Source of the DNA: Selenomonadaceae bacterium
GTDB lineage: Bacteria; Bacillota; Negativicutes; Selenomonadales; Selenomonadaceae
Length of the DNA: 36,108 nt
Assembly: GCA_017446845.1 (NCBI GenBank)
Contig: JAFSOQ010000067.1
Location: forward strand, 1 to 36,108
Reading direction: 5' to 3'
The notes below the pieces were generated by a model. That model was not told the origin of the DNA. It was given only the letters and a program-made list of their open reading frames with translations, and ran no database searches. This document shows positions 1,564-36,108 of this stretch, piece after piece. Positions within the stretch are counted from its first letter, which is position 1. The number at the start of each line of letters is the position of its first letter. The translations under genes were made by a program, and so were the position numbers.

Positions 1564-2066
1564 TTAATTTGCGACGCTTGACGACGAACGCGCTTTTAAT
1601 ATCGTTGTCGCTGATTTTATTTTTTGTCGAAGGATTTTTGCCGCCGCTGATTTTACCGCCCGGCGCGAAGTTCGGCTTGGCAAACGTCGTGACGCTTGTC
1701 GCGCTGTATTTGTTATCAGATTTCGACGCGCTGACAATTTTATCGACAAGAATTTTTTTGGCAGGAATATTTGCAGGCTCGCCGACGGTGATTTTGTTCA
1801 GCTTGAGCGGCGGGCTTTTGAGTTTGGCGGCGATGATTTTGCTTAAGCGCACAAAAAAATTTTCAATAATCGGAGTAAGTGCGGCGGGCGGATTTTTTCA
1901 TAACGTCGGACAAATTTTGGCGGCGATAATTTTCATGAGCAGTCAAAAAATTTTTCTCTACCTGCCGATTTTGGGGACGTGCGGAATTTTTGTAGGCGTG
2001 TTAATCGGTTTGCTCGCGAAAGAAATTTTGCGTAAAATTTTTTTCTTGACAACGTGCGGCAAATAG
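1560..2066 (+). CDS. Gx transporter family / heptaprenyl diphosphate synthase component I-like membrane protein
   Basis: This 168-residue, very hydrophobic protein has five or six membrane segments and the family-typical stretches FLPPLILPPGAKFGLANVVTLVAL and GxxAGSPTVILFSLSGGLLS, followed by a glycine-rich FFHNVGQI segment. These match the Pfam Hpre_diP_synt_I family (PF07456). Despite its name, that family looks like an ECF-type S-component or small transporter rather than a prenyl synthase, so the function is open. It starts at TTG 1560 inside the stop of the preceding gene (4-nt overlap), so it is probably translated by coupling with the MFS gene; no separate Shine-Dalgarno sequence is clear. 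The last codons contain the promoter of the tRNA gene. Confidence 0.8.
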   Translation: MINLRRLTTNALLISLSLILFFVEGFLPPLILPPGAKFGLANVVTLVALYLLSDFDALTILSTRIFLAGIFAGSPTVILFSLSGGLLSLAAMILLKRTKKFSIIGVSAAGGFFHNVGQILAAIIFMSSQKIFLYLPILGTCGIFVGVLIGLLAKEILRKIFFLTTCGK

Positions 2067-2074
2067 TTTAAGAT
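2046..2074 (+). promoter_or_regulatory. Promoter of tRNA-Ala, overlapping the end of the upstream CDS
   Basis: TTGACA (2046-2051), exactly 17 bp, TAAGAT (2069-2074) is a near-perfect sigma-A promoter. The expected start (about 2081) lies just before the mature tRNA 5' end at 2086. The -35 element and most of the spacer lie in the last codons and stop of the membrane protein gene ending at 2066. Confidence 0.75.
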
Positions 2075-2085
2075 AGCCGCGCTGT

Positions 2086-2161
<76 letters not shown>

Positions 2162-2175
2162 AAATTGAATTATTT

Positions 2176-2195
2176 CCGCCTCAGGCGGTTGTTTT
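2176..2195 (+). terminator. Probable terminator after tRNA-Ala
   Basis: CCGCC (2176-2180), a 3-nt loop, GGCGG (2184-2188), then TTGTTTT. The stem is short (5 bp) but all GC, and the T-rich tail starts at once. It lies 15 nt after the tRNA CCA. Confidence 0.6.
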
Positions 2196-2268
2196 CGTTT
2201 ATAGGACAAAATTTTTTTCTCGCGCCCATTAAAGAAAAAATTAACGTAATTTACAAACAATCCCCTAA

Positions 2269-2297
2269 TTGAAATGTTAAATAGTCTATGCTAGAAT
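2269..2297 (+). promoter_or_regulatory. Promoter of birA-MATE operon
   Basis: TTGAAA (2269-2274), 17 bp, TAGAAT (2292-2297), 20 bp before the ATG chosen for birA. Strong sigma-A match. No palindromic BirA-type operator (TTGTAAACN14-16GTTTACAA-like) is visible around it. Confidence 0.65.
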
Positions 2298-2317
2298 TTT
2301 ATGCGAGGTGATTGAAT

Positions 2318-3286
2318 ATGCGAAAGACGATTGTTGAAATGTTAAAGAATGCCGGTGAAAGTTTTATTTCGGGCGAGAGCATCGCCGGTGAGTTGGGAAT
2401 TTCCCGCACGGCCGTCTGGAAACATGTTCAGAAACTTCGCGAAAACGGCTACGAAATTCTCAGCTATGCTCGTTGCGGCTACAAACTCAAAGACGCGCCC
2501 GACTTGCTTTTGCCAAGCGAAGTTCAAATCGGACTCGACACGAAAATTATCGGCAAGCAAATGGAATATTATCCTTCCGTCGATTCTACAAACCGTGCGG
2601 CGAAAGCTTTGGCATATCACGACGCGGAAGACGGAACCATTGTTGTTGCCGAAGAACAAACCGGCGGCAAAGGTCGGCTCGAAAGAAAATTTTTTTCGCC
2701 GCGCGTCAAAGGCATTTGGTTTTCGATTGTTTTGCGTCCGAATTTTTCTCCGCACGATGCACCAAAATTTACTTTAATGTCGGCAGTCGCGGTCGTCGAA
2801 GCGATGAAACGTTTCAATCTCAAAGCGGGAATCAAATGGCCGAATGATATTTTATTCGACGGGCGAAAACTCGTAGGAATTTTGACGGAAATGACGGGCG
2901 AACTCGGAAAAATATCTTATCTGGTGATTGGCGTCGGAATTAACGTCAATATAAGCCGCGAAGAATTCCCCGAAGAACTTCGAGATATTGCGGTATCATT
3001 GTCGGAAATTAACGGCGAAGAAATTCCCCGCGTAAAATTTTTCCGCGCGGTGCTTGAGGAGTTCGACAAACTTTATGTCGAAGTCAACGACAGAGGTTTT
3101 GATAAAGTTCTCGAACGTTGGAAGGAATACAACATAACGCTCGGAAAAAATATTCATGTCATATCGGCGGGCGACGGCGAAAATTTTGACGGCAAAGCTG
3201 TCGACTTGAATTCGGAAGGTGCGCTCGTCGTCGAAACTGAAAACGGACTTCGGACGGTTTACGCGGGAGATGTCTCCATAAGATGA
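2318..3286 (+). CDS. birA: Biotin-[acetyl-CoA-carboxylase] ligase / biotin operon repressor
   Basis: BirA activates biotin to biotinyl-5'-AMP and transfers it to the carrier lysine of carboxylases. The form with an N-terminal helix-turn-helix also represses biotin genes. The HTH lies at residues 21-45 (SIAGELGISRTAVWKHV). The biotinyl-AMP loop is GGKGRLERKF (116-125), slightly diverged from GRGRRGR, followed by KWPNDI (173-178) and GRKLVGIL with the conserved Lys184. A C-terminal BPL_C barrel ends the protein. The 322-residue length is usual for the bifunctional class. The ATG at 2318 is preferred over TTG 2312 because GAGGTG (2305-2310) is 7 nt from the ATG. The 3' end overlaps the MATE gene by 4 nt (ATGA). 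Confidence 0.93.
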   Translation: MRKTIVEMLKNAGESFISGESIAGELGISRTAVWKHVQKLRENGYEILSYARCGYKLKDAPDLLLPSEVQIGLDTKIIGKQMEYYPSVDSTNRAAKALAYHDAEDGTIVVAEEQTGGKGRLERKFFSPRVKGIWFSIVLRPNFSPHDAPKFTLMSAVAVVEAMKRFNLKAGIKWPNDILFDGRKLVGILTEMTGELGKISYLVIGVGINVNISREEFPEELRDIAVSLSEINGEEIPRVKFFRAVLEEFDKLYVEVNDRGFDKVLERWKEYNITLGKNIHVISAGDGENFDGKAVDLNSEGALVVETENGLRTVYAGDVSIR

Positions 3287-4635
3287 AATTTAACACACGC
3301 GATATTGACATGCTCCAAGGCTCGCTGTGGGACAAAATAATTTTATTTGCGTTGCCGCTGGCTTTGACGGGCGTCATGCAACAGTTGCTGAACGCGGCGG
3401 ATGTCGTGACGCTCGGCAAATTCGTCGGCAAAAATGCAATGGCGGCAGTCGGAAATAATATTTCGATGGTCGGGCTGATTGTCAGCTTGATGATGGGCTT
3501 GAGTTTGGGCGCGAACGTCGTCATTGCTCAAAATATCGGTGCAAAAAGAATCGACCGTGCTCACGCGGCAGTGAACACGGCTTTTGTTTTGGCGATAGCG
3601 GCGGGATTTTTTTTCTGCTTACTCGGAGAACTTTTGGTCGAGCCGATTTTTTATTTCCTTGAGGTGCCGAAAATCGTCGTGAACATGGCGGAAAATTATC
3701 TGCGGATATTTTTACTCGGCTTGCCCGCGATAAGTCTTTACAATTTCGAGGCGGCGATTTTTCGGAGCAAAGGCGACACGCGCACGCCGTTAATTGCATT
3801 GGCGACGGCAAGCGGCGTAAATATTTTGCTGAACTTAATTTTTGTCCTGCAATTCGGTTGGGGAATAGAAGGAGTTGCGGCGGCGACCGTCATTGCCCAC
3901 GTCATCAGCGCAATAATTTTATTCGTGGAGCTTTTAAAATCGGAAGGCGTCATAAAACTTGACTTGAACGCAATGCACATCGACAAGGAAGAACTTTTCG
4001 AGATTGTGCGAATCGGATTGCCGGCGGGAATTCAAGGCATGGTTTTTTCCCTGTCAAATCTTTTGATTCAAGCGGCGATAAACTCACTGGGCGCGGACGC
4101 AATGGCGGCTTCGGCTGCAGCGTTCACAATTGAAATAAATGTTTTCTGCGTCGTCAACGGTTTCGGACAGGCGGCAACGACCTTTGTCGGACAAAACTAC
4201 GGCGCGAATAATATTCCTCGTTGCAAGCGGGCAACTTGGGTTTCAATGGGCTTGAGTGCAATTTTTATGCAAACGCTCAGCTTTTTTATTTTGTTCTTTG
4301 CCGAAGAAATTTTGAGCCTTTTCAACAGCGACCCCGAAGTTATTCGGCTCGGTGTAATTCGACTTTGGTATATCGTCTTGCCCGAATTAATTAACGTGGC
4401 AATGGAAGGTTTATCGGGAGCAATGCGCGGCTACGGAATTTCTTTGACGCCCGCCGTTATAACTTTAATTTGCGTGTGCGGCGTGCGACTAATCTGGGTT
4501 TTCACGGCGTTTGCCAAAATTCCGATTTATGCGACGCTCATGGCGGTTTATCCGATAAGTTGGTTCATCACGACGATATTTTTAATCGCGGCGTATTCTT
4601 ATCACATTAAGCGGCTCAAACCTGCGCGGGCGTAA
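3283..4635 (+). CDS. MATE family efflux transporter
   Basis: The 450-residue membrane protein has twelve predicted helices in two homologous halves. The start DMLQGSLWDKIILFALPLALTGVMQQLLNAADVVTLGKFVG is typical of MatE domains, and the second half opens with LFEIVRIGLPAGIQGMVFSLSNLLIQ. MATE proteins export cationic drugs or metabolites using a Na+ or H+ gradient; the substrate cannot be told from sequence. ATG at 3283 overlaps the birA stop by 4 nt, so it is translationally coupled to birA. No functional link between biotin control and this exporter is obvious. It is followed by a strong terminator. Confidence 0.92.
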   Translation: MKFNTRDIDMLQGSLWDKIILFALPLALTGVMQQLLNAADVVTLGKFVGKNAMAAVGNNISMVGLIVSLMMGLSLGANVVIAQNIGAKRIDRAHAAVNTAFVLAIAAGFFFCLLGELLVEPIFYFLEVPKIVVNMAENYLRIFLLGLPAISLYNFEAAIFRSKGDTRTPLIALATASGVNILLNLIFVLQFGWGIEGVAAATVIAHVISAIILFVELLKSEGVIKLDLNAMHIDKEELFEIVRIGLPAGIQGMVFSLSNLLIQAAINSLGADAMAASAAAFTIEINVFCVVNGFGQAATTFVGQNYGANNIPRCKRATWVSMGLSAIFMQTLSFFILFFAEEILSLFNSDPEVIRLGVIRLWYIVLPELINVAMEGLSGAMRGYGISLTPAVITLICVCGVRLIWVFTAFAKIPIYATLMAVYPISWFITTIFLIAAYSYHIKRLKPARA

Positions 4636-4658
4636 AAAAATAAGACGCAAAAAATTTT

Positions 4659-4690
4659 CTTTCCGAAACCGGAAGGGAATTTTTTTTTTA
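4659..4690 (+). terminator. Intrinsic terminator of the birA-MATE operon
   Basis: CTTTCCG (4659-4665), loop AAAC, CGGAAGG (4670-4676) with one G-T pair, followed by a run of about ten T from 4680. Placed 24 nt after the MATE stop. Confidence 0.85.
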
Positions 4691-4714
4691 TAAAGAATGA
4701 CTTCAACATAGCAT

Positions 4715-4766
4715 TTTTCCGGAAAACAAAGTTCTTTTTTGAAAGACTTTTTATAGTTCATATACG
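4715..4766 (+). promoter_or_regulatory. Promoter region of the first TadG-like gene with an upstream palindrome
   Basis: TTGAAA (4739-4744), 16 bp, TATACG (4761-4766) is a plausible sigma-A promoter. Just upstream lies a perfect 12-bp palindrome, TTTTCCGGAAAA (4715-4726), placed where an activator or repressor could bind. The ribosome binding site GGAGGGAG (4778-4785) is 9 nt before the ATG. Regulation is inferred only. Confidence 0.4.
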
Positions 4767-4794
4767 AAAAATTTAGCGGAGGGAGTGTCAAATT

Positions 4795-6996
4795 ATGAGA
4801 TTCGATAAAATTATCCCTTCAAGAATAAATTTTCGACAGCACGGACAAGTTATGGCTTTGTTCGCGTTGCTCGTCCCGGTCTTGTTCATATTTGCCGGCG
4901 TGGGAATGGATCTCGGCTGGTATTATTTAAACGTGTCGCGACTGCAGAACGCGGCGGACGCGGCTGCTCTTGCCGGTGCTCGTGCGCTGATTGAAACAAA
5001 CGATACATTATCCGAGTACAAAGGCGTTCAGCTCATTGACAAATTTTATGCCGAAGATGATACCGGCATGGGCAGTGACGACGAAGGAAACATCGATACC
5101 GTGTCAGGCGACGAAGCGGCGGCGGCTTATGTGCTGAGAAATCTCTCTTCCGACGAAAACTGGACGGGCGGCACCGGCAACTACACGATGAACAGCAACT
5201 GGGGCGTCGGTAATTCTAAAATAATAATGGCACCTTCTCTGTACAAATACGGCGGCAATTTTTATTACGTCGTGAACATTAAGGAAAGTGTTCAACATTT
5301 CTTTATGCCCGGCTTGGATTGGTTGGATTCCATGAACGCGCCCGTCATTGCCGTCGCCATGCTGACAAAAAATAGCGGCGGTACAAGCACAGACACCGTT
5401 GCCGAAACTTATACGCCTGTAGAAATTGTATTTGATGCAAACGGCGGCGTTTTCAGTGACGGCACTACTGCCAGTACAAAATCAATTAAAAATCCTGATT
5501 CAATGGAAGATGATGAAGTATCCGAATCGCTGACACCCGACACAGGAACACCGACTTACGAAAGCAATACCAAATCAAGTGTCAAAGAATTTAAAGGCGT
5601 CTGGAGCACCAATCCGAATCCGACCGAGGGACAAATCATCGACATTTATCAAGACGGCGCACAGTTGACCAAAACCGAGCTTGCAAAACTTTTCGGCGAC
5701 AATGAAACCGTTACGCTTTATGCCGTGTGGGAAGAAGTCCTCCCGCACAACAACAGGACGCTTTGGGAGCAAATGCATTACTTAATCGCCAAATACGTCT
5801 ACGACCCCGACTGGAATGTTTCCGTAAATAAATACGGTGGCAAGCTTCATGACCTCAATTTCATTCCGACGGGCAACGCCGCAGTTTTGAAGAACAACAA
5901 AGTCGTTTATATAAACATGGCGGCGAATACTAAAGCCAATAACAGCGGCGAATACATAAAAGACGTTGACAGATTGTTCCTCGACTTCAGACCCGACGGC
6001 TTTATTATTCGGGTGCATGCGCTGATAAACGTAAATGCGGCGTATGATGTTCGTTCGGACAGAGCTGACGACCCGTTGTATATCCGAATCGAAGCCGAGC
6101 CGAAAATTGGCAACACGGGTAATGAGCCGCAACAAATCATCATCAACATCAATGCGGACAATACGGCTGATTCAAAACGCCCGCTGTTCTTCTACTACGA
6201 CGGACCGCTGACTTACAACGGGACTTATCCCGACCGCGTGACGCAACCCGTTATCTTGAATATGACCACGGATTTTAAAGGCGTGTTGTTTATGCCCGAA
6301 GTGCCCGTAGTCATTCACGGCAACGGTCACAAATTCGAGGGATTTATTGTCGCGAGCGAATTCCGTTACGCCGCCACTTCCGGCAAGAAAACCGCCAAAT
6401 ACACGCAGAACGGACTTGCCGCGTATTATTACATTGACGACAGCAACAATATCCAAACCGTTTTGGCGGACGGCAATAATGCACTTGAACTCTACAATTA
6501 CAACGCGGAAAACTCAAACCGATTCAATTTGGGCAAAGAATCTAAGTTTAGAAATTTTACGGCGGAGGTCAATGTTAACTTTATGTACGTTTACTACGAT
6601 TACAATTACGTTATGGACTCGTCGCCGTTTTATCTCAACACCGGTGACTTGATTCCGCTTTATAAACTCGTCAACGGCAAGCAGGTTCGCGTCACGAAAT
6701 GGGACGACGTGAATCTTTACGACAATCCTGCGAACGTTTCAAGTAGGCAACTTATTCCGAAAATCGTGACCGACACAACCAAGAAAGGTACTGTTCGTTT
6801 GACGAACGGCAGCCCGTCGCCGCTTTATGACGAGGCAGGCAACCCCGTATATTTCTGCGACGATTACGTTAATCTGACGGGCACATACACGGTCTTTACT
6901 TTGGACAGAGTGGCTGACGGCACTCGCGACGAAAAAGAATTTTTATTGACTAAGACCGACGAATTAAACGTATCCAACACAGACGATTGGAAATAA
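4795..6996 (+). CDS. TadE/TadG-type surface protein with InlB-like repeat (paralog 1)
   Basis: The 733-residue protein begins like the N-terminus of Flp pilus-assembly TadE/TadG proteins: GQVMALFALLVPVLFIFAGVGMDLGWYYL as a single membrane segment (about residues 18-45), then SRLQNAADAAALAGA. Residues about 210-310 form one InlB/Listeria-Bacteroides repeat (FDANGGVFSDG to TLYAVW), somewhat degenerate. A conserved C-terminal region starts at about 318 (NNRTLWEQMHYLIAKYVYD) and looks beta-rich, with FKGVLFMPEVPVVIHGNGH. No sortase motif or von Willebrand A motif was seen. No tadA, tadB, tadC or prepilin gene is in the window. The protein is probably anchored by its N-terminal helix with the bulk outside; this is inference. 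It shares overall architecture with the next gene. The function is unknown. Confidence 0.8.
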   Translation: MRFDKIIPSRINFRQHGQVMALFALLVPVLFIFAGVGMDLGWYYLNVSRLQNAADAAALAGARALIETNDTLSEYKGVQLIDKFYAEDDTGMGSDDEGNIDTVSGDEAAAAYVLRNLSSDENWTGGTGNYTMNSNWGVGNSKIIMAPSLYKYGGNFYYVVNIKESVQHFFMPGLDWLDSMNAPVIAVAMLTKNSGGTSTDTVAETYTPVEIVFDANGGVFSDGTTASTKSIKNPDSMEDDEVSESLTPDTGTPTYESNTKSSVKEFKGVWSTNPNPTEGQIIDIYQDGAQLTKTELAKLFGDNETVTLYAVWEEVLPHNNRTLWEQMHYLIAKYVYDPDWNVSVNKYGGKLHDLNFIPTGNAAVLKNNKVVYINMAANTKANNSGEYIKDVDRLFLDFRPDGFIIRVHALINVNAAYDVRSDRADDPLYIRIEAEPKIGNTGNEPQQIIININADNTADSKRPLFFYYDGPLTYNGTYPDRVTQPVILNMTTDFKGVLFMPEVPVVIHGNGHKFEGFIVASEFRYAATSGKKTAKYTQNGLAAYYYIDDSNNIQTVLADGNNALELYNYNAENSNRFNLGKESKFRNFTAEVNVNFMYVYYDYNYVMDSSPFYLNTGDLIPLYKLVNGKQVRVTKWDDVNLYDNPANVSSRQLIPKIVTDTTKKGTVRLTNGSPSPLYDEAGNPVYFCDDYVNLTGTYTVFTLDRVADGTRDEKEFLLTKTDELNVSNTDDWK

Positions 6997-28373: not shown

Positions 28374-31319
28374 TTACGGACGTTGTTTGTAAGCAAGAAC
28401 AGCTTCGGCGTAAAGTTCAACGCCTTTGTCGGCGTTCGGGTGAATGAAGTCGACGAGATAATTTTTGTTCGGGAAAATTTTCAATCGAGCTTCGATGTAA
28501 GGATTGGTGTTGATGAAAATTTCGTTCTGCGCGGCGCACCAATTTTCCAACGCGGCGGAATATTCGTCGTTGAGTTTAATTTTTTCGTCGAAAGATAATC
28601 GGCTGATAAAATCTCCGTCAGTGGAAGTCCAGGGCGCGATAAAAATAAATTTTGCGGTCGAGATTTTTTCTTTAACGGCGTCGCGAAGTTTTTGCAAGTC
28701 GGCAACGTATTCTTCGGGCGTCATCGAGCAAATTTCTTCGTCACGATAGCGCACGTCATTTGTCCCGACTGCCACGACAAATAAATCGGCATTGCTCTGA
28801 ATCATTTCTTCGAGACGGTCGAGTAAAATTTTGGTCGTCGCGCCGCCTTGAGAGACGTTGAAAATTTTTCCGCGTATCAAATGTTCAATCGGTTCAAAAT
28901 ACGGGACGCCGCCGTTACGCGTGCCCTCCGTCAAGCTGTCGCCGACAAAGCAAACATTTTCCGCCGCCGTCAACGCCTTATAAAAATCGCCGCGCAGGTC
29001 GTCGGAAATTTCAAGCGGCTTAACTTTGTTGCGCATAAAACCATCCTTATCAAAAAAATATTTCTGCTGAGTGAAATTAATTTCTTCGCCGAGCATAATT
29101 TTGGTAATGTGCTTTAAAACTTCGTCGACGCGTTCAAAGTCGCGAGTACTTATTTCGCCGCGCAATTTTTTGTTCGTGAAAATTTCGTTCGTCGGCAAGG
29201 CGCGATAATTCCCGTCGAGTTTCGATTCAGTCCACAGCGGAATAATCGAGCCGCCGATAATTTTTTTCGTCGTGCGGTCGATATAAACTTCAACCAATGC
29301 GCTTGCGTCGCCGTTGTGTTCGCGGTAGATGTTCGCAAAATTCCCCGGACAAAACAGCGTAAAATTTTTCCCGTCGAATTCAATCGGTTGGACGGAATGT
29401 GTATGGTCGCCGAAAATTATATCCGCGCCGCAATCGATAAAAATTTTCTGCCACGTCCGCTGAAATTTATCGGGCGCGTAGACAAATTGCGTACCCCAAT
29501 GCGGCAAAACAATTATCAAGTCGGGAGAAAAACTTTTCGCCAAAGTGAAATCTTCTTTGACCGATTTGACAACTTTTTTAAAGTTCGGGCTGTCCTCTCC
29601 GACGATAAACGACGTCACGAAAGAATTTTCGCCGCCGATAAGTTCGTCGGTGTCGTGATAATTTGTGCCGTAGGTGTAAGCCAAAATCGCGAGCTTGATT
29701 CCGTCGCGCTCCAAAATTTTCACGCGGTGATTTTTTTTATCGTCAAGACTTGAATACGAGCCGATAAAATCAATTTGCTTGTCGTTGAGGATTTTAATTG
29801 TGCGAAGTGCGCCGCTGATGTCCATGTCGAGCAAATGATTGTTGGCAGTCGTCACGAGGTCGAAGCCCGCATTTTTAACGGCGTCGGCAAATTCGTCGGG
29901 GAAGTTCAGATAAAGTTTTTTGCCGTCGTCGAAGTTGCTTTGAGAAAAATTTTTACTCGTGCCGCCGAGAGGTCCTTCAAAAACTCCGATTGCAAAATCT
30001 GCGCGGGAAATGTAAGGCGTCGCGTACTCGAAAATTTCCGCAAAGTCGTAGCCGTTGCCGTTGAAACCGCGCTTAACTTGGTCTTCAAGCAAAATTAAAT
30101 CGCCGCAAAATAAAATCTTGAACGAGTTATCAAATTGCGTCGCCGTCTCCGAATTCATCACGCGATAAATTTTATCGGGAGTACTCGGCGCGGAAATTCT
30201 TACAAAAATCGGCAGGCAAAAAATCGTTATCACGAACGACAAAAAAATTATTCGGAACGCCGCGCCCTTGACGGTTGTCAACGATTCGACAATGCCGTTT
30301 AAAAATTTTTTAAGCAGGTCGCTGAATTTATCCGAGCCGAAAATCAGCGTCATCAGAAATGTTGCGACAATCGCCGCGCAGATTTGGAATTCGGTCGAGC
30401 TTGCCGAAAAATTATCCGAGAACCAAAGCGTAAACGGTCTGTGCAGAAGATAAATCGCCAAAGAATTTTTGCCCGCCTTGGTCAGCAACGGGATATTTTT
30501 TTCCTCCGAGGCGAGCAACAAAATTACAATCGACAACGCGGAAATAATTATCAGCGCGATTCTTCCGAACAATCCGTTGAATGTTGCATAAGTATTCGGC
30601 AAAAGGTCGCGGTCAGTCAAGTTAAATGTTTCGTGCGCTAAAAAACCCGCGCAGATTGTCACGAGCAATAAAAGCAATCCGAGCGGGAAAAATTTTTTCT
30701 GTTGAAGTTCCGTCACCGATTCTTTTGAGAACAGATAACCCGCCATGAAATACGGGAAAAACACGACGATTTTTACCGCCGCGAATGTCATGTTTATATC
30801 CGTCCAAAAACCCGCCGCCAATGAAAATAAAATCAGCAGCGGCAAAATATTTCTCAGGCGTTCAATCAGCGGGATTGTCAAACGCCAGACAATCAGCGCG
30901 AGCAAATACCACGCCGAAAAATACGGATTGACGAGCGATAAATTACCCCCCCCCATGAATATTTCGCGCGTCAAGAAAAATCCGTTCAGCAAGATAAATG
31001 CAATGACCAAATTCATCATCGGGAAGAACGAGCGCGAGTGATCGCTTTTGCTGAAAAATCCCGACACGAATACGAAAGCCGGCATATGGAACATGTAGAT
31101 TGCGTCGACGATAAAATTATTGAGCGGTCGATTTTGCAAGGCAAACAGGCAATGCGCGAACACGACCAAAATTATCAGAAAGCCCTTGATGTTGTCCCAA
31201 TATGCCAGCCGCTTTGAAAGCGGCGGAACAACTGTCGCGTTGCAACGTTGCGATGATTTTGAGGTTGTAGCCGCGTCCGTACGAAATGCCTGCGCATTTC
31301 TAGCCTCATTATCCAACAT
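28374..31319 (-). CDS. Three-domain surface-polymer enzyme: acyltransferase-3, CapA and SGNH hydrolase fusion
   Basis: 981 residues. Residues 36-340 form an acyltransferase-3 membrane domain with about ten helices (AYWDNIKGFLIILVVFAHCLF, conserved His56; YLLHRPF near 290). A further membrane helix at about 354-375 leads outside. Residues 400-700 are a CapA/PgsA metallophosphatase-like domain: FCGDLILLED, TANNHLLD (491-498), LPHWGTQF (605-612), GDHTHSVQP (637-645), CPGNFAN. Residues 787-981 are an SGNH esterase/transferase: GDSLTEG (Ser794), GTND (852-855), DFIHPN (Asp957, His960). AT3-SGNH fusions (OatA type) O-acetylate peptidoglycan or glycans; the CapA insert is unusual. Nine consecutive G (30946-30954) encode part of residues 122-125. 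The ribosome binding site AGGA is 7 nt upstream and comes from a TTAGGAATTAG repeat. It follows the HIT gene. Confidence 0.88.
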   Translation of the reverse strand: MLDNEARNAQAFRTDAATTSKSSQRCNATVVPPLSKRLAYWDNIKGFLIILVVFAHCLFALQNRPLNNFIVDAIYMFHMPAFVFVSGFFSKSDHSRSFFPMMNLVIAFILLNGFFLTREIFMGGGNLSLVNPYFSAWYLLALIVWRLTIPLIERLRNILPLLILFSLAAGFWTDINMTFAAVKIVVFFPYFMAGYLFSKESVTELQQKKFFPLGLLLLLVTICAGFLAHETFNLTDRDLLPNTYATFNGLFGRIALIIISALSIVILLLASEEKNIPLLTKAGKNSLAIYLLHRPFTLWFSDNFSASSTEFQICAAIVATFLMTLIFGSDKFSDLLKKFLNGIVESLTTVKGAAFRIIFLSFVITIFCLPIFVRISAPSTPDKIYRVMNSETATQFDNSFKILFCGDLILLEDQVKRGFNGNGYDFAEIFEYATPYISRADFAIGVFEGPLGGTSKNFSQSNFDDGKKLYLNFPDEFADAVKNAGFDLVTTANNHLLDMDISGALRTIKILNDKQIDFIGSYSSLDDKKNHRVKILERDGIKLAILAYTYGTNYHDTDELIGGENSFVTSFIVGEDSPNFKKVVKSVKEDFTLAKSFSPDLIIVLPHWGTQFVYAPDKFQRTWQKIFIDCGADIIFGDHTHSVQPIEFDGKNFTLFCPGNFANIYREHNGDASALVEVYIDRTTKKIIGGSIIPLWTESKLDGNYRALPTNEIFTNKKLRGEISTRDFERVDEVLKHITKIMLGEEINFTQQKYFFDKDGFMRNKVKPLEISDDLRGDFYKALTAAENVCFVGDSLTEGTRNGGVPYFEPIEHLIRGKIFNVSQGGATTKILLDRLEEMIQSNADLFVVAVGTNDVRYRDEEICSMTPEEYVADLQKLRDAVKEKISTAKFIFIAPWTSTDGDFISRLSFDEKIKLNDEYSAALENWCAAQNEIFINTNPYIEARLKIFPNKNYLVDFIHPNADKGVELYAEAVLAYKQRP
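30946..30954 (-). repeat. G9 homopolymer tract inside the AT3-CapA-SGNH gene
   Basis: Nine C on the plus strand, nine G on the coding strand, reading ATG GGG GGG GGT AAT. One extra G gives GGG GGG GGG TAA, an immediate stop; one fewer shifts the frame. It is a candidate slipped-strand switch. It is the only long G/C run seen in the window. Confidence 0.85.
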
Positions 31320-31338: not shown

Positions 31339-31686
31339 TCAGCCGGGCGGCCAAGTCATTTTTCTGCCGCCGAGTAAGTGAACGTGCAAATGATGAACGG
31401 TTTGTCCGCCGTCGTCGCCGGTGTTCACGACAATTCTGAAACCTTTGTCAGCAACTCCGAGTTCGGCGGCGAGTTTCGGAACCACGTCAACGAAAATGTG
31501 CGCGGCAAGTTCTTTGTCCTCCGCTTTGAATTGCGCAATGCTTTGAATATGTTTTTTCGGGACAATCAAAACGTGGACGGGAGCTTTCGGACTCAAATCT
31601 TTGAACGCAACAACGCTGTCGTCCTCGAAAACTTTTTGCGAGGGAATTTCGCCCGCCGCAATCTTACAAAAAATACAATCAGCCAT
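31339..31686 (-). CDS. HIT family nucleotide-binding hydrolase (HINT-like)
   Basis: The 115-residue protein has the histidine triad HHLHVHLLGG (98-107; His99, His101, His103), CIFCKIAAGEIPSQKV at the start with a Cys4/Cys7 pair, and HVLIVPKKH. HINT-type enzymes cleave adenosine phosphoramidates and similar nucleotide conjugates in the cytoplasm; the true substrate is unknown. AAGGAG lies 8 nt before the ATG. It lies between the membrane protein gene and the fusion gene, with a heptamer repeat on the upstream side. Confidence 0.95.
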   Translation of the reverse strand: MADCIFCKIAAGEIPSQKVFEDDSVVAFKDLSPKAPVHVLIVPKKHIQSIAQFKAEDKELAAHIFVDVVPKLAAELGVADKGFRIVVNTGDDGGQTVHHLHVHLLGGRKMTWPPG

Positions 31687-31716: not shown

Positions 31717-31783
31717 AAGTAGGAACTAGGAACTAGTTTCTAATCCCTACTAGTTCTTAGTTCCTAATTCCTAATTCCTTAAT
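31717..31783. repeat. Heptanucleotide repeat hairpin between the membrane protein gene and the HIT gene
   Basis: Left arm GTAGGAA, CTAGGAA, CTAG (31719-31736). Right arm TTTCTAA, TCCCTAC, TAGTTCT, TAGTTCC, TAATTCC, TAATTCC (31737-31778). AACTAG/CTAGTT pair across the centre. It fills nearly the whole spacer. Confidence 0.75.
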
Positions 31784-33213
31784 TATTCCAAAACCGCAAT
31801 GACGTGTTTAACGCCGTAATATTGTGCGACGCAAGAATTTCTGCAACTGTTCAATTTCGGCTCGATGCCCGCAAAATAATCCAGTTCGGAGGCAGCACTC
31901 CTGTCGCCGTGAATTTCTTCAAAGCGATGTCGAATTTGCATTTTCGGCATGGGAATCGGGTCAAGGGTGGCATTGCGTTCAATGTATCGAACTTGTCGAC
32001 GCGCCGCATTGAAAATCGAAATGTCGACGTAAATCAGCGTGGCAAAGTAGGAGACAAAACACACGGTCAAGACAAGCGACACGCCGCGCAGAAATTTTTT
32101 CGGCAAATTCAGAGCGGCTTTTAAATTTTGTCGTTCCAATTCCAAAATCGCACTGCTCGACGCAACCAAGATAAATGACAGCGACGTTATCGAAATGCGG
32201 GAATTATATTCGGGCGAGAACATCAGCGCAATCGGAACCAAAAATCCCGTCGCCGTGAATGCCAACATTAAAATTTCTGCCATGGTTATCTTTGCCGATT
32301 TGCGTCGCAGGAAGTAAATAAACATCGGAATCAGCGCGATAAGGTCAGCCGCAATTACTCGCAAAAATCCGTTCGACATGTGCGACATAAAAAGTTCTTT
32401 GGTGTAAACAAAATTCGGGTGAGCAAATTCCATGCGCACGAAATTTCCGGGCGCGAGAAGCATGAACGCACAGCCGACGCTTATTGCCAAAAATCCCGCA
32501 ATCATCCACGGACGGAAGACGCCTTGCACTTTGCACATGACCAGTAAAAAAAATGTCAGGCAGACCGTCGCCAAAGCTCCTGCTTCGTTCGACCAACCCG
32601 CGAATAATCCCAAAATAATCATCAACACGACGTTTATCGCGGAATTTGCCGCCTCGTGCGAGCGTAATGCTTTTACATACGGCGTCAAGAAAAATAATTG
32701 GAAAAATGTCATCCACATATAATTGCAGGAACCCGTAAGCCAAAGCGTGCTCATCATCGACGACGCCATTAAGAAAAACATCGTGAAGAAAATCCACAGC
32801 AAAGCAGCCCGCGATATTTTCAGCCACGTGTTCGATAAATTTATTATCGTCAGCACCAAAAAGACAAAAATTATCGTGTTGGCAATGTCAAAAACAGGTT
32901 TGCCGACCCAGATAAAAAATTGAACAAAAGCATGAGCAAAAATTCTTCCGCCCCAATCAAAGTAATGCGACGTCAGCGATTTAAAAATATCGCTAAAAGA
33001 TTCGATTCGGTCGCGGTGTTCAATTTCGGGCGAACCGAATTGCATTGCCTCCAAGTTGCCGCCGTGTGCGCCGTCCCAAATGAATGCGTAGCCGTAATCG
33101 TCATGGCTCAAAGGGCATAAAGCCGTTCGCACGAAAAAAAATCCTGCGAATGCCGCAAATAAAATCATCGACCGCGAAGAATCCATCGTTTGAACCAAAC
33201 GTTGAAAGCTCAA
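31783..33213 (-). CDS. Polytopic membrane protein, possibly DUF6056 / GT-C glycosyltransferase
   Basis: The 476-residue protein has about ten to twelve membrane helices. After the first helix comes an outward loop with LSHDDYGYAFIWDG (about 35-48). Such paired acids in the first loop mark GT-C glycosyltransferases using lipid-linked sugars. A second loop has HYFDWGGRIFAHAF, and LWLTGSCNYMWMT and LFAGWSNEAGALAT lie later. These features resemble DUF6056 proteins; family assignment is tentative. The soluble tail of about 80 residues lies at the C-terminus. TTG start, with AAAGGAGG 8 nt upstream. It lies 15 nt after the Sir2 gene, whose stop precedes its Shine-Dalgarno. A role in surface glycan building would fit the neighbouring acyltransferase fusion. 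Confidence 0.7.
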   Translation of the reverse strand: MSFQRLVQTMDSSRSMILFAAFAGFFFVRTALCPLSHDDYGYAFIWDGAHGGNLEAMQFGSPEIEHRDRIESFSDIFKSLTSHYFDWGGRIFAHAFVQFFIWVGKPVFDIANTIIFVFLVLTIINLSNTWLKISRAALLWIFFTMFFLMASSMMSTLWLTGSCNYMWMTFFQLFFLTPYVKALRSHEAANSAINVVLMIILGLFAGWSNEAGALATVCLTFFLLVMCKVQGVFRPWMIAGFLAISVGCAFMLLAPGNFVRMEFAHPNFVYTKELFMSHMSNGFLRVIAADLIALIPMFIYFLRRKSAKITMAEILMLAFTATGFLVPIALMFSPEYNSRISITSLSFILVASSSAILELERQNLKAALNLPKKFLRGVSLVLTVCFVSYFATLIYVDISIFNAARRQVRYIERNATLDPIPMPKMQIRHRFEEIHGDRSAASELDYFAGIEPKLNSCRNSCVAQYYGVKHVIAVLE

Positions 33214-35140: not shown

Positions 35141-36108
35141 CTAAGCCACTCTTATTCTCAAAGGTCTGTCCAAAAGACCCACACACAGTCGCTCAAAATT
35201 GAGGTTCTGCTTACTTTTTCTTAAAATATTTGCCGCGCCGTTCACGTCTGCATTTATCAGTATGCCGCTTTTCGACCTATACAAGCCGCGCTGAATTCTC
35301 TTGCCGCTGAATGTTCCGGAGTATGGCGTTTCCGCGTCAAATACCGGCAGTTCGTCCAAATCCAAAAAGCTTGCCTTAGACGTGTAACTCTCTTCCTGCT
35401 CAATGTAATTCATTCCGTAGCGCGTGCATAGATTTTCTAACTGTCGACGTAACGCACCGAAACTTATCTGCGTGAATTGCTGATTAATTTTCTTGCCAAG
35501 ATTTATTCCACGTTTGAAGTCGGGATTATAGCCGCAAATTATCGTTCCTATGTCGTTAGCTATGCAAAAATTGATGATATAGCGAGCAGTTTTCTTCAAG
35601 CAGTCATTGATTCGGTTGTTTCTTTTCAGCGTGATTCGCTCAATAAGTCGCGAAGAATATTTGCCTTGTTTCATAAGGATTGATTGCAAATAAGCGCGGC
35701 GTTTGTTCCAATTTCGATTGATTTGTTTGATTTTACGTCCGTCCATTAGGAACGAAGTCCCAAAATTGGTTACACACGTCGCCAAATTATCCAGCCCGAT
35801 ATCAATCGCCAATGAATTTTCTCGGTTCAATTTCAAATCTTCCTCATTGACTTCGTAGCAGTAAGCGATTTTAAATGCACGACCTTTATACAGCGGAATG
35901 ATTTTCACTTCCTTAATTTTCTTTCCGATTAATCGTTCGGGCACTTTGATTCGGATTCTGTGACTGATCAAAACGCTCGTGTAAGTCCGGCTTTGCGGCA
36001 CGGTCAAATATCCGTCTTGAATGCTTACACTGTTGCCGGTGATGATTAAGTTGTACAAGCCGCCTTTTTTGTGATAGCGCGGCGGTCGTGCAGTTTTAAC
36101 TTTGCCGA
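35141..36108 (-). CDS. tnpB: TnpB-type RNA-guided nuclease (IS200/IS605 OrfB), N-terminus beyond the window
   Basis: The frame is open to the right edge: 16 codons before the TTG at 36058 read in family style (ARPPRYHKKGG), so the gene is cut by the window, not truncated. The RuvC-like sites are AIDIGLDNLATC (first Asp), EQEESYTSKAS (Glu) and LINADVNGAANI (last Asp), all present, with NWNKRRAYLQSILMKQGKYSSR as a bridge region. The usual zinc-finger CxxC pairs between the Glu motif and the last Asp are missing; in their place is SFLDLDELPVFDAETPYSGTF and GKRIQRGLYRSKSG. This is a known zinc-less TnpB variant by my recollection. No tnpA is visible. The 3' end and the hairpin beyond may encode the guide RNA. 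Confidence 0.88.
   Translation of the reverse strand, partial: GKVKTARPPRYHKKGGLYNLIITGNSVSIQDGYLTVPQSRTYTSVLISHRIRIKVPERLIGKKIKEVKIIPLYKGRAFKIAYCYEVNEEDLKLNRENSLAIDIGLDNLATCVTNFGTSFLMDGRKIKQINRNWNKRRAYLQSILMKQGKYSSRLIERITLKRNNRINDCLKKTARYIINFCIANDIGTIICGYNPDFKRGINLGKKINQQFTQISFGALRRQLENLCTRYGMNYIEQEESYTSKASFLDLDELPVFDAETPYSGTFSGKRIQRGLYRSKSGILINADVNGAANILRKSKQNLNFERLCVGLLDRPLRIRVA

Follow-up and report, generated by a model that had tools for sequence, protein, structure and literature searches.

The window analysed here, a 36,108 nucleotide stretch of Selenomonadaceae DNA, carries at 28374-31319 on the minus strand a single open reading frame of 981 amino acids without internal stops. Pfam assigns three domains to the encoded protein: an acyltransferase-3 domain (AT3; Acyl_transf_3, residues 39-325, E 1.6e-22), a CapA domain (PGA_cap, residues 401-663, E 1.6e-56) and an SGNH domain (Lipase_GDSL_2, residues 791-963, E 3e-14). 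Each match lies above its own curated Pfam cut-off; NCBIfam returned only sub-threshold matches to MslH and NolL. Along the chain the AT3 domain is followed by an extra membrane helix, the CapA domain and the SGNH domain, with the catalytic residues intact. The original prediction of three intact domains on one chain was thus borne out by the open frame, the Pfam matches and the complete motifs. Its placement of CapA between AT3 and SGNH held as well, but not its CapA boundary at residue 700, since the fold continues to about residue 760 (see below). Upstream on the same strand, 19 bp from the fusion gene, lies a HIT-family gene (31339-31686, minus strand) and beyond it the gene of a DUF6056 membrane protein (31783-33213, minus strand; Pfam E 2.4e-94), both assigned by Pfam and by synteny, for the HIT gene with the loci L035, L038, L040 and L044. 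At the window edge (35141-36058) a TnpB-type (IS605 OrfB) gene is located.

A database search for the three-domain order yielded 16 intact full-length proteins in which this order is identical, such that a chance joining or a sequencing error is ruled out. Counting the window, eight Selenomonadaceae carry a full-length copy, and others are found in an Oscillospiraceae lineage and in one further Bacillota family. In a scan of species genomes, relatives from Selenomonadaceae metagenome-assembled genomes (MAGs), several of them from sheep rumen and goat omasum and including Quinella sp. 1Q7, were 72-81% identical, and full-length relatives from Oscillospiraceae/Clostridia MAGs 46-49% identical. 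A search confined to the window's family recovered the same copies, in genomes that were assigned to its genus, which makes a Quinella-like source organism probable. More full-length proteins were found in the family f11 (L064) and in the L042 family (L112, L113, L116, L118). The CapA-SGNH pair was present in 4 of 398 sampled Bacillota genomes, in 6 of 198 genomes of the L042 family and in 2 of 6 genomes of f11; among 250 genomes sampled from the class it was seen in the window's own genome only. Rather than being widespread and already characterised, the fusion is conserved yet rare. Its confinement to one genus within the Negativicutes suggests, as far as such a distribution can tell, horizontal transfer among gut Firmicutes. 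No plasmid record covered 80% of the fusion query, and no relative of the fusion was found on viral contigs. Every domain is under purifying selection: in pairwise comparisons among the window's relatives, dN/dS came to about 0.08-0.25 for each of them, and likewise for the segment that joins CapA to SGNH. In three loci (L037:7956-10818, L063 and L065) the fusion copy is split by a frameshift or stop, which probably reflects gene decay or assembly faults.

The AT3 domain (30345-31205, minus strand) scored 80.4 bits against PF01757, for which the cut-off is 31, and is also recognizable from its motif and its hydropathy. The R/K-x10-H motif of the first transmembrane helix is present as K45-x10-H56 and is invariant in the alignment of the 16 full-length proteins, as are R37, H78 and R294. 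The RxxR motif, which in the AT3 family is found on the third transmembrane helix (TMH3) and is highly conserved though not universal, does not occur in residues 1-345. A sequence search of the AT3 part against solved structures gave no match. Hydropathy revealed membrane segments across the AT3 part and one further segment at residues 357-375 (30195-30251, minus strand; predicted helix 350-376), which lies between AT3 and CapA and is likely TMH11. In OafB and OatA an 11th helix places the fused domain outside (PMC9833829). By analogy, the CapA and SGNH domains of the AT3 form likely lie outside the membrane, a topology that supports the original prediction. An initial AlphaFold model of the full-length protein, based on 11 sequences and with an average pLDDT of 68, served only for the topology and a first fold search, and the soluble part was modelled with a pLDDT of 78.

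The CapA domain (Pfam extent 29331-30119, minus strand) scored 192 bits against PF09587 with a cut-off of 27. Its metal core D/E/NNH/H/HxH is found in the motifs GD407, E448, N494-H495-x2-D498, H607 and H639-x-H641, and all of D407, E448, N494, H495, D498, H607, H639, H641 and N660 are invariant in the 16 full-length proteins. The closest solved structure in Foldseek and VIA-align was the lasso-peptide epimerase MslH (8gq9), to which the CapA model aligned with Z 28.7 over 308 residues at an rmsd of 3.3. The aligned model positions 12-377 correspond to residues 395-760 (29040-30137, minus strand), such that the apparent linker after residue 700 largely belongs to CapA. The next structural matches were YmdB and purple acid phosphatases (Z 14-16) as well as 5'-nucleotidases.

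MslH is a peptide epimerase of calcineurin fold, in which H88/D91 and H295/D11 carry out catalysis and E44, N87, H259 and H261 bind calcium (PMC10406935). In a profile alignment both His/Asp dyads are kept in CapA, as H495/D498 and H641/D407, and so are three of the four calcium ligands (E44, N87, H259), where the equivalences of D11 and E44 rest on motif order. The position of H261, in contrast, is taken by Gly609, and the fusion adds H639 where MslH has Gly. With both changes taken together the metal site looks like the canonical two-metal type, unlike the one-calcium site of MslH, a single-chain enzyme that has neither AT3 nor SGNH. CapA could be imagined as a phosphoesterase with two metals, acting on a phosphate or phosphodiester group, e.g. 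of an acceptor that is lipid-linked or of teichoic type, either ahead of acylation or following it. All canonical ligands including H639 and H641 are at hand for this, and the phosphatases, YmdB and nucleotidases are the next structural neighbours; however, the MslH fold is far closer and the neighbouring genes suggest no phosphoester substrate. We regard such an activity as unlikely.

Taking the fold similarity literally, CapA would be an extracytoplasmic metal-dependent epimerase, and one protein would both invert an amino-acid centre and acylate the same envelope peptide or glycopeptide. Both catalytic dyads of MslH, the structure closest in fold, are kept, which agrees with this, as does the existence of AT3-alanine racemase proteins (VanT) as a known second AT3 fusion type (PMC9558356). 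In B. subtilis, omission of PgsA shifts the D/L ratio of PGA from 75/25 to 5/95, for which the authors propose an interaction with a racemase or a conformational effect (PMC6029982). This result fits a stereochemical role of CapA proteins and, by the lowered share of D-Glu, links CapA-type proteins to peptide substrates. The loss of a calcium ligand at Gly609 makes the metal site differ from that of MslH, though, and no epimerised product is known here, which leaves an epimerase distinctly unlikely.

Compared with 20 stand-alone CapA proteins, which were among the best-scoring ones and are not a sample of the whole family, the fusion CapA domains differ consistently at positions 411, 611, 612, 663 and 665, with substitutions including H411L, E611Q, Y612F and S663N. 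These differences suggest a CapA substrate distinct from that of the stand-alone proteins. In the same genus, proteins that join CapA to a Mur ligase have Arg at position 411; H411 is thus not universal among CapA proteins, and the difference at this position alone is weak evidence.

A sister clade of four genomes from the same genus (L050-L053) carries CapA-SGNH at 57-60% identity without AT3. In three of the four the N-terminus is an in-frame hexapeptide (left-handed beta-helix) acyltransferase. In L050 this acyltransferase ends just upstream of CapA-SGNH in another frame, i.e. the gene is split or frameshifted. The catalytic residues of CapA and SGNH are invariant also in the four hexapeptide forms. 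A tree of CapA domains that took in the 20 stand-alone proteins, and was rooted on them, placed all fusion CapA domains on one side, apart from stand-alone CapA (100/100). The hexapeptide clade (99/98) nests among the AT3 forms, and a tree of CapA-SGNH gave the same grouping. The simplest history would be that an AT3-form ancestor lost its AT3 domain and gained a soluble acyltransferase. CapA-SGNH is thus the constant core of these proteins, combined with an exchangeable acyl donor. The attachment of either an AT3 or a hexapeptide enzyme to the same pair points to an acyl-CoA-type enzyme as the feeder in both cases. No signal or membrane helix was found in the hexapeptide-form proteins, by which CapA-SGNH would apparently be able to work in the cytosol as well; this weakens a purely envelope-based reading. 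Glycosyltransferase or RgpF genes are located close to two of the four hexapeptide forms, which speaks weakly for a surface glycan or a precursor of it. One could further imagine that acyl export is coupled to stereochemical editing, with CapA epimerising one amino-acid residue in an envelope peptide or glycopeptide outside, AT3-SGNH acylating the same molecule, and the sister lineage carrying out this CapA-SGNH reaction inside the cell by means of its soluble hexapeptide enzyme. We consider this combination improbable. In L050 (6393-7331) and L051 (6189-7175), the gene immediately upstream of hexapeptide-CapA-SGNH codes for a protein of about 310-330 amino acids that looks secreted; the L051 copy gave no Pfam match.

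The SGNH domain (28431-28949, minus strand) contains the motifs GDS795, GG825-826, GTN854D and D957-x-x-H960. Blocks I, II, III and V correspond to S795, G825, N854 and H960 and are invariant in 20 sequences; together with D957 these residues are also invariant in the 16 full-length proteins. The structure resembles acetylxylan esterases (Z about 16) and sialate O-acetylesterases. In the fusion, no match to SGNH_AT3 (PF19040) was obtained but only matches to GDSL_2, GDSL and, weakly, DUF459, DUF4886 and FCH up to E 10. Given this assignment and the esterase-like fold, the domain may remove acyl groups instead of transferring them. AT3 alone would then acylate the acceptor, and SGNH would act as an editing esterase that removes or trims the acyl group after CapA processing. 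Many AT3 proteins indeed act without an SGNH domain (PMC9558356), and close relatives of this SGNH domain exist as free-standing proteins. Its fold and catalytic residues are shared by Axe2, an acetylxylan esterase, and by related esterases of the GDSL type; Axe2, however, is free-standing and hydrolytic, whereas the SGNH domain here forms one chain with a membrane domain that exports acyl groups. In OatA, OafA and OafB, which are characterised AT3-SGNH fusions, transfer depends on the SGNH domain, and its constant fusion to acyltransferases (AT3, hexapeptide and, in L026, GNAT) suggests a joint synthetic step. An editing function thus appears unlikely. The L026 protein (1435-2721) joins a GNAT acetyltransferase to an SGNH domain that shares 47% identity with the one in the fusion. 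A free-standing SGNH relative is encoded at L056:8565-9251, on the same strand as a flagellin-like gene and just downstream of it.

The original prediction had further proposed a surface-polymer locus in which CapA builds or handles a poly-amino-acid or teichoic-like chain and the protein adds acyl groups to it. For this speak the name of CapA, the DUF6056 gene adjoining in close relatives, and the glycosyltransferase or RgpF genes near two of the hexapeptide forms. The arrangement of DUF6056, HIT and fusion gene is, however, kept in the closest relatives only (L035, L038, L040, L044). In the remaining carriers the neighbours are alpha-amylase, ABC-transporter, gyrA/parE, trp or aspS genes, where genes without a profile scan were named from reading of their sequences. 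With a neighbourhood that is not conserved, the polymer locus was rejected as a general context. Among the carrier neighbourhoods examined we found no biosynthetic cluster that would name the acceptor. CapC/PgsC (PF14102) was absent from the window's own genome (74% complete) and from 14 others with the protein or its hexapeptide form, while the same search found it in B. subtilis as a positive control; a polymer built by CapA is therefore unsupported. The only other PGA_cap match in the own genome was a 5'-nucleotidase-like protein. Nor did soluble CapA and AT3-SGNH genes adjoin in relatives: no AT3 or SGNH gene was seen within about 8 kb of stand-alone CapA in 20 loci, using home-made profiles from few sequences that may miss weak matches. 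As the CapA domain also falls into a clade apart from stand-alone CapA, with consistent substitutions, we consider a role in such a polymer very improbable.

Our preferred reading, to which we assign a probability of roughly 0.4, is that of an AT3-SGNH-type envelope acyltransferase with a built-in CapA metal enzyme. From acyl-CoA in the cytoplasm, the AT3 domain would pick up an acyl group (acetyl in the simplest case) and present it at the outer face of the membrane. There, the external SGNH domain would accept it on Ser795, using an Asp957/His960 relay and an oxyanion hole of Gly825 and Asn854, and pass it to a hydroxyl of the acceptor. CapA, with its two-metal calcineurin-like site, would bind and process the same acceptor, such that processing is coupled to acylation. 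The acceptor itself would probably be a peptide-bearing or glycan envelope component, e.g. peptidoglycan. For OafB, the SGNH triad has been found essential for acetylation (PMC9833829). This reading is further supported by the conserved single chain with its invariant catalytic residues, the helix after AT3, the donor exchange in the sister clade, and the MslH-like fold and PgsA result that tie CapA-type proteins to peptide substrates. Against it stand the esterase-like GDSL_2 type of the SGNH domain, the missing RxxR motif of AT3, the hexapeptide form without signal or membrane helix, and neighbourhoods that point to no acceptor.

With OatA, OafA and OafB the fusion shares the N-terminal AT3 domain, the additional helix, a C-terminal SGNH domain with intact triad and the predicted extracytoplasmic action. 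It differs by the roughly 360-residue CapA domain inserted between AT3 and SGNH, by an SGNH domain of the esterase-like GDSL_2 type instead of PF19040, and by an AT3 domain with K for R in R-x10-H and without RxxR. From CapA/PgsA proteins, with which it has in common the fold, the complete metal and catalytic core and the predicted extracytoplasmic location, its CapA domain is set apart by the separate clade, the fusion to acyl-transfer domains and the lack of a CapC partner in the genomes tested. VanT (PMC9558356) resembles it in that there, too, the partner of AT3 is a domain with a possible effect on stereochemistry; the racemase is of an unrelated type, and VanT has no SGNH domain. According to reviews, AT3 proteins come in stand-alone, AT3-SGNH and AT3-alanine racemase forms (PMC9558356, PMC9833829). 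We found no description of an AT3-CapA-SGNH fusion in the literature covered, which leaves out most subscription journals, and the architecture may stand uncommented in domain databases. The protein is a real variant of AT3-SGNH, conserved but rare and apparently not described before, and adds a further AT3 fusion type to those with SGNH and alanine racemase. To our knowledge, there is no agreement on what CapA/PgsA proteins do biochemically, and the way in which AT3 domains pass acyl groups on to their partners is still a matter of debate. The natural AT3-CapA chain and the donor exchange in the sister clade suggest that CapA chemistry and acyl transfer share a substrate, and the role of CapA becomes testable with one recombinant protein.

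Other CapA fusions occur in the same genus. Two proteins, with 1586 and 991 amino acids (L059:7546-12303 and L060:6738-9710), each combine CapA with a domain of Mur-ligase type, much like a CapA and a CapB-like ligase merged into one chain. On the same strand, upstream of the CapA-Mur ligase gene, L059 encodes a 1657 amino acid protein (1664-6634) that combines CapA with a GT4-type glycosyltransferase.
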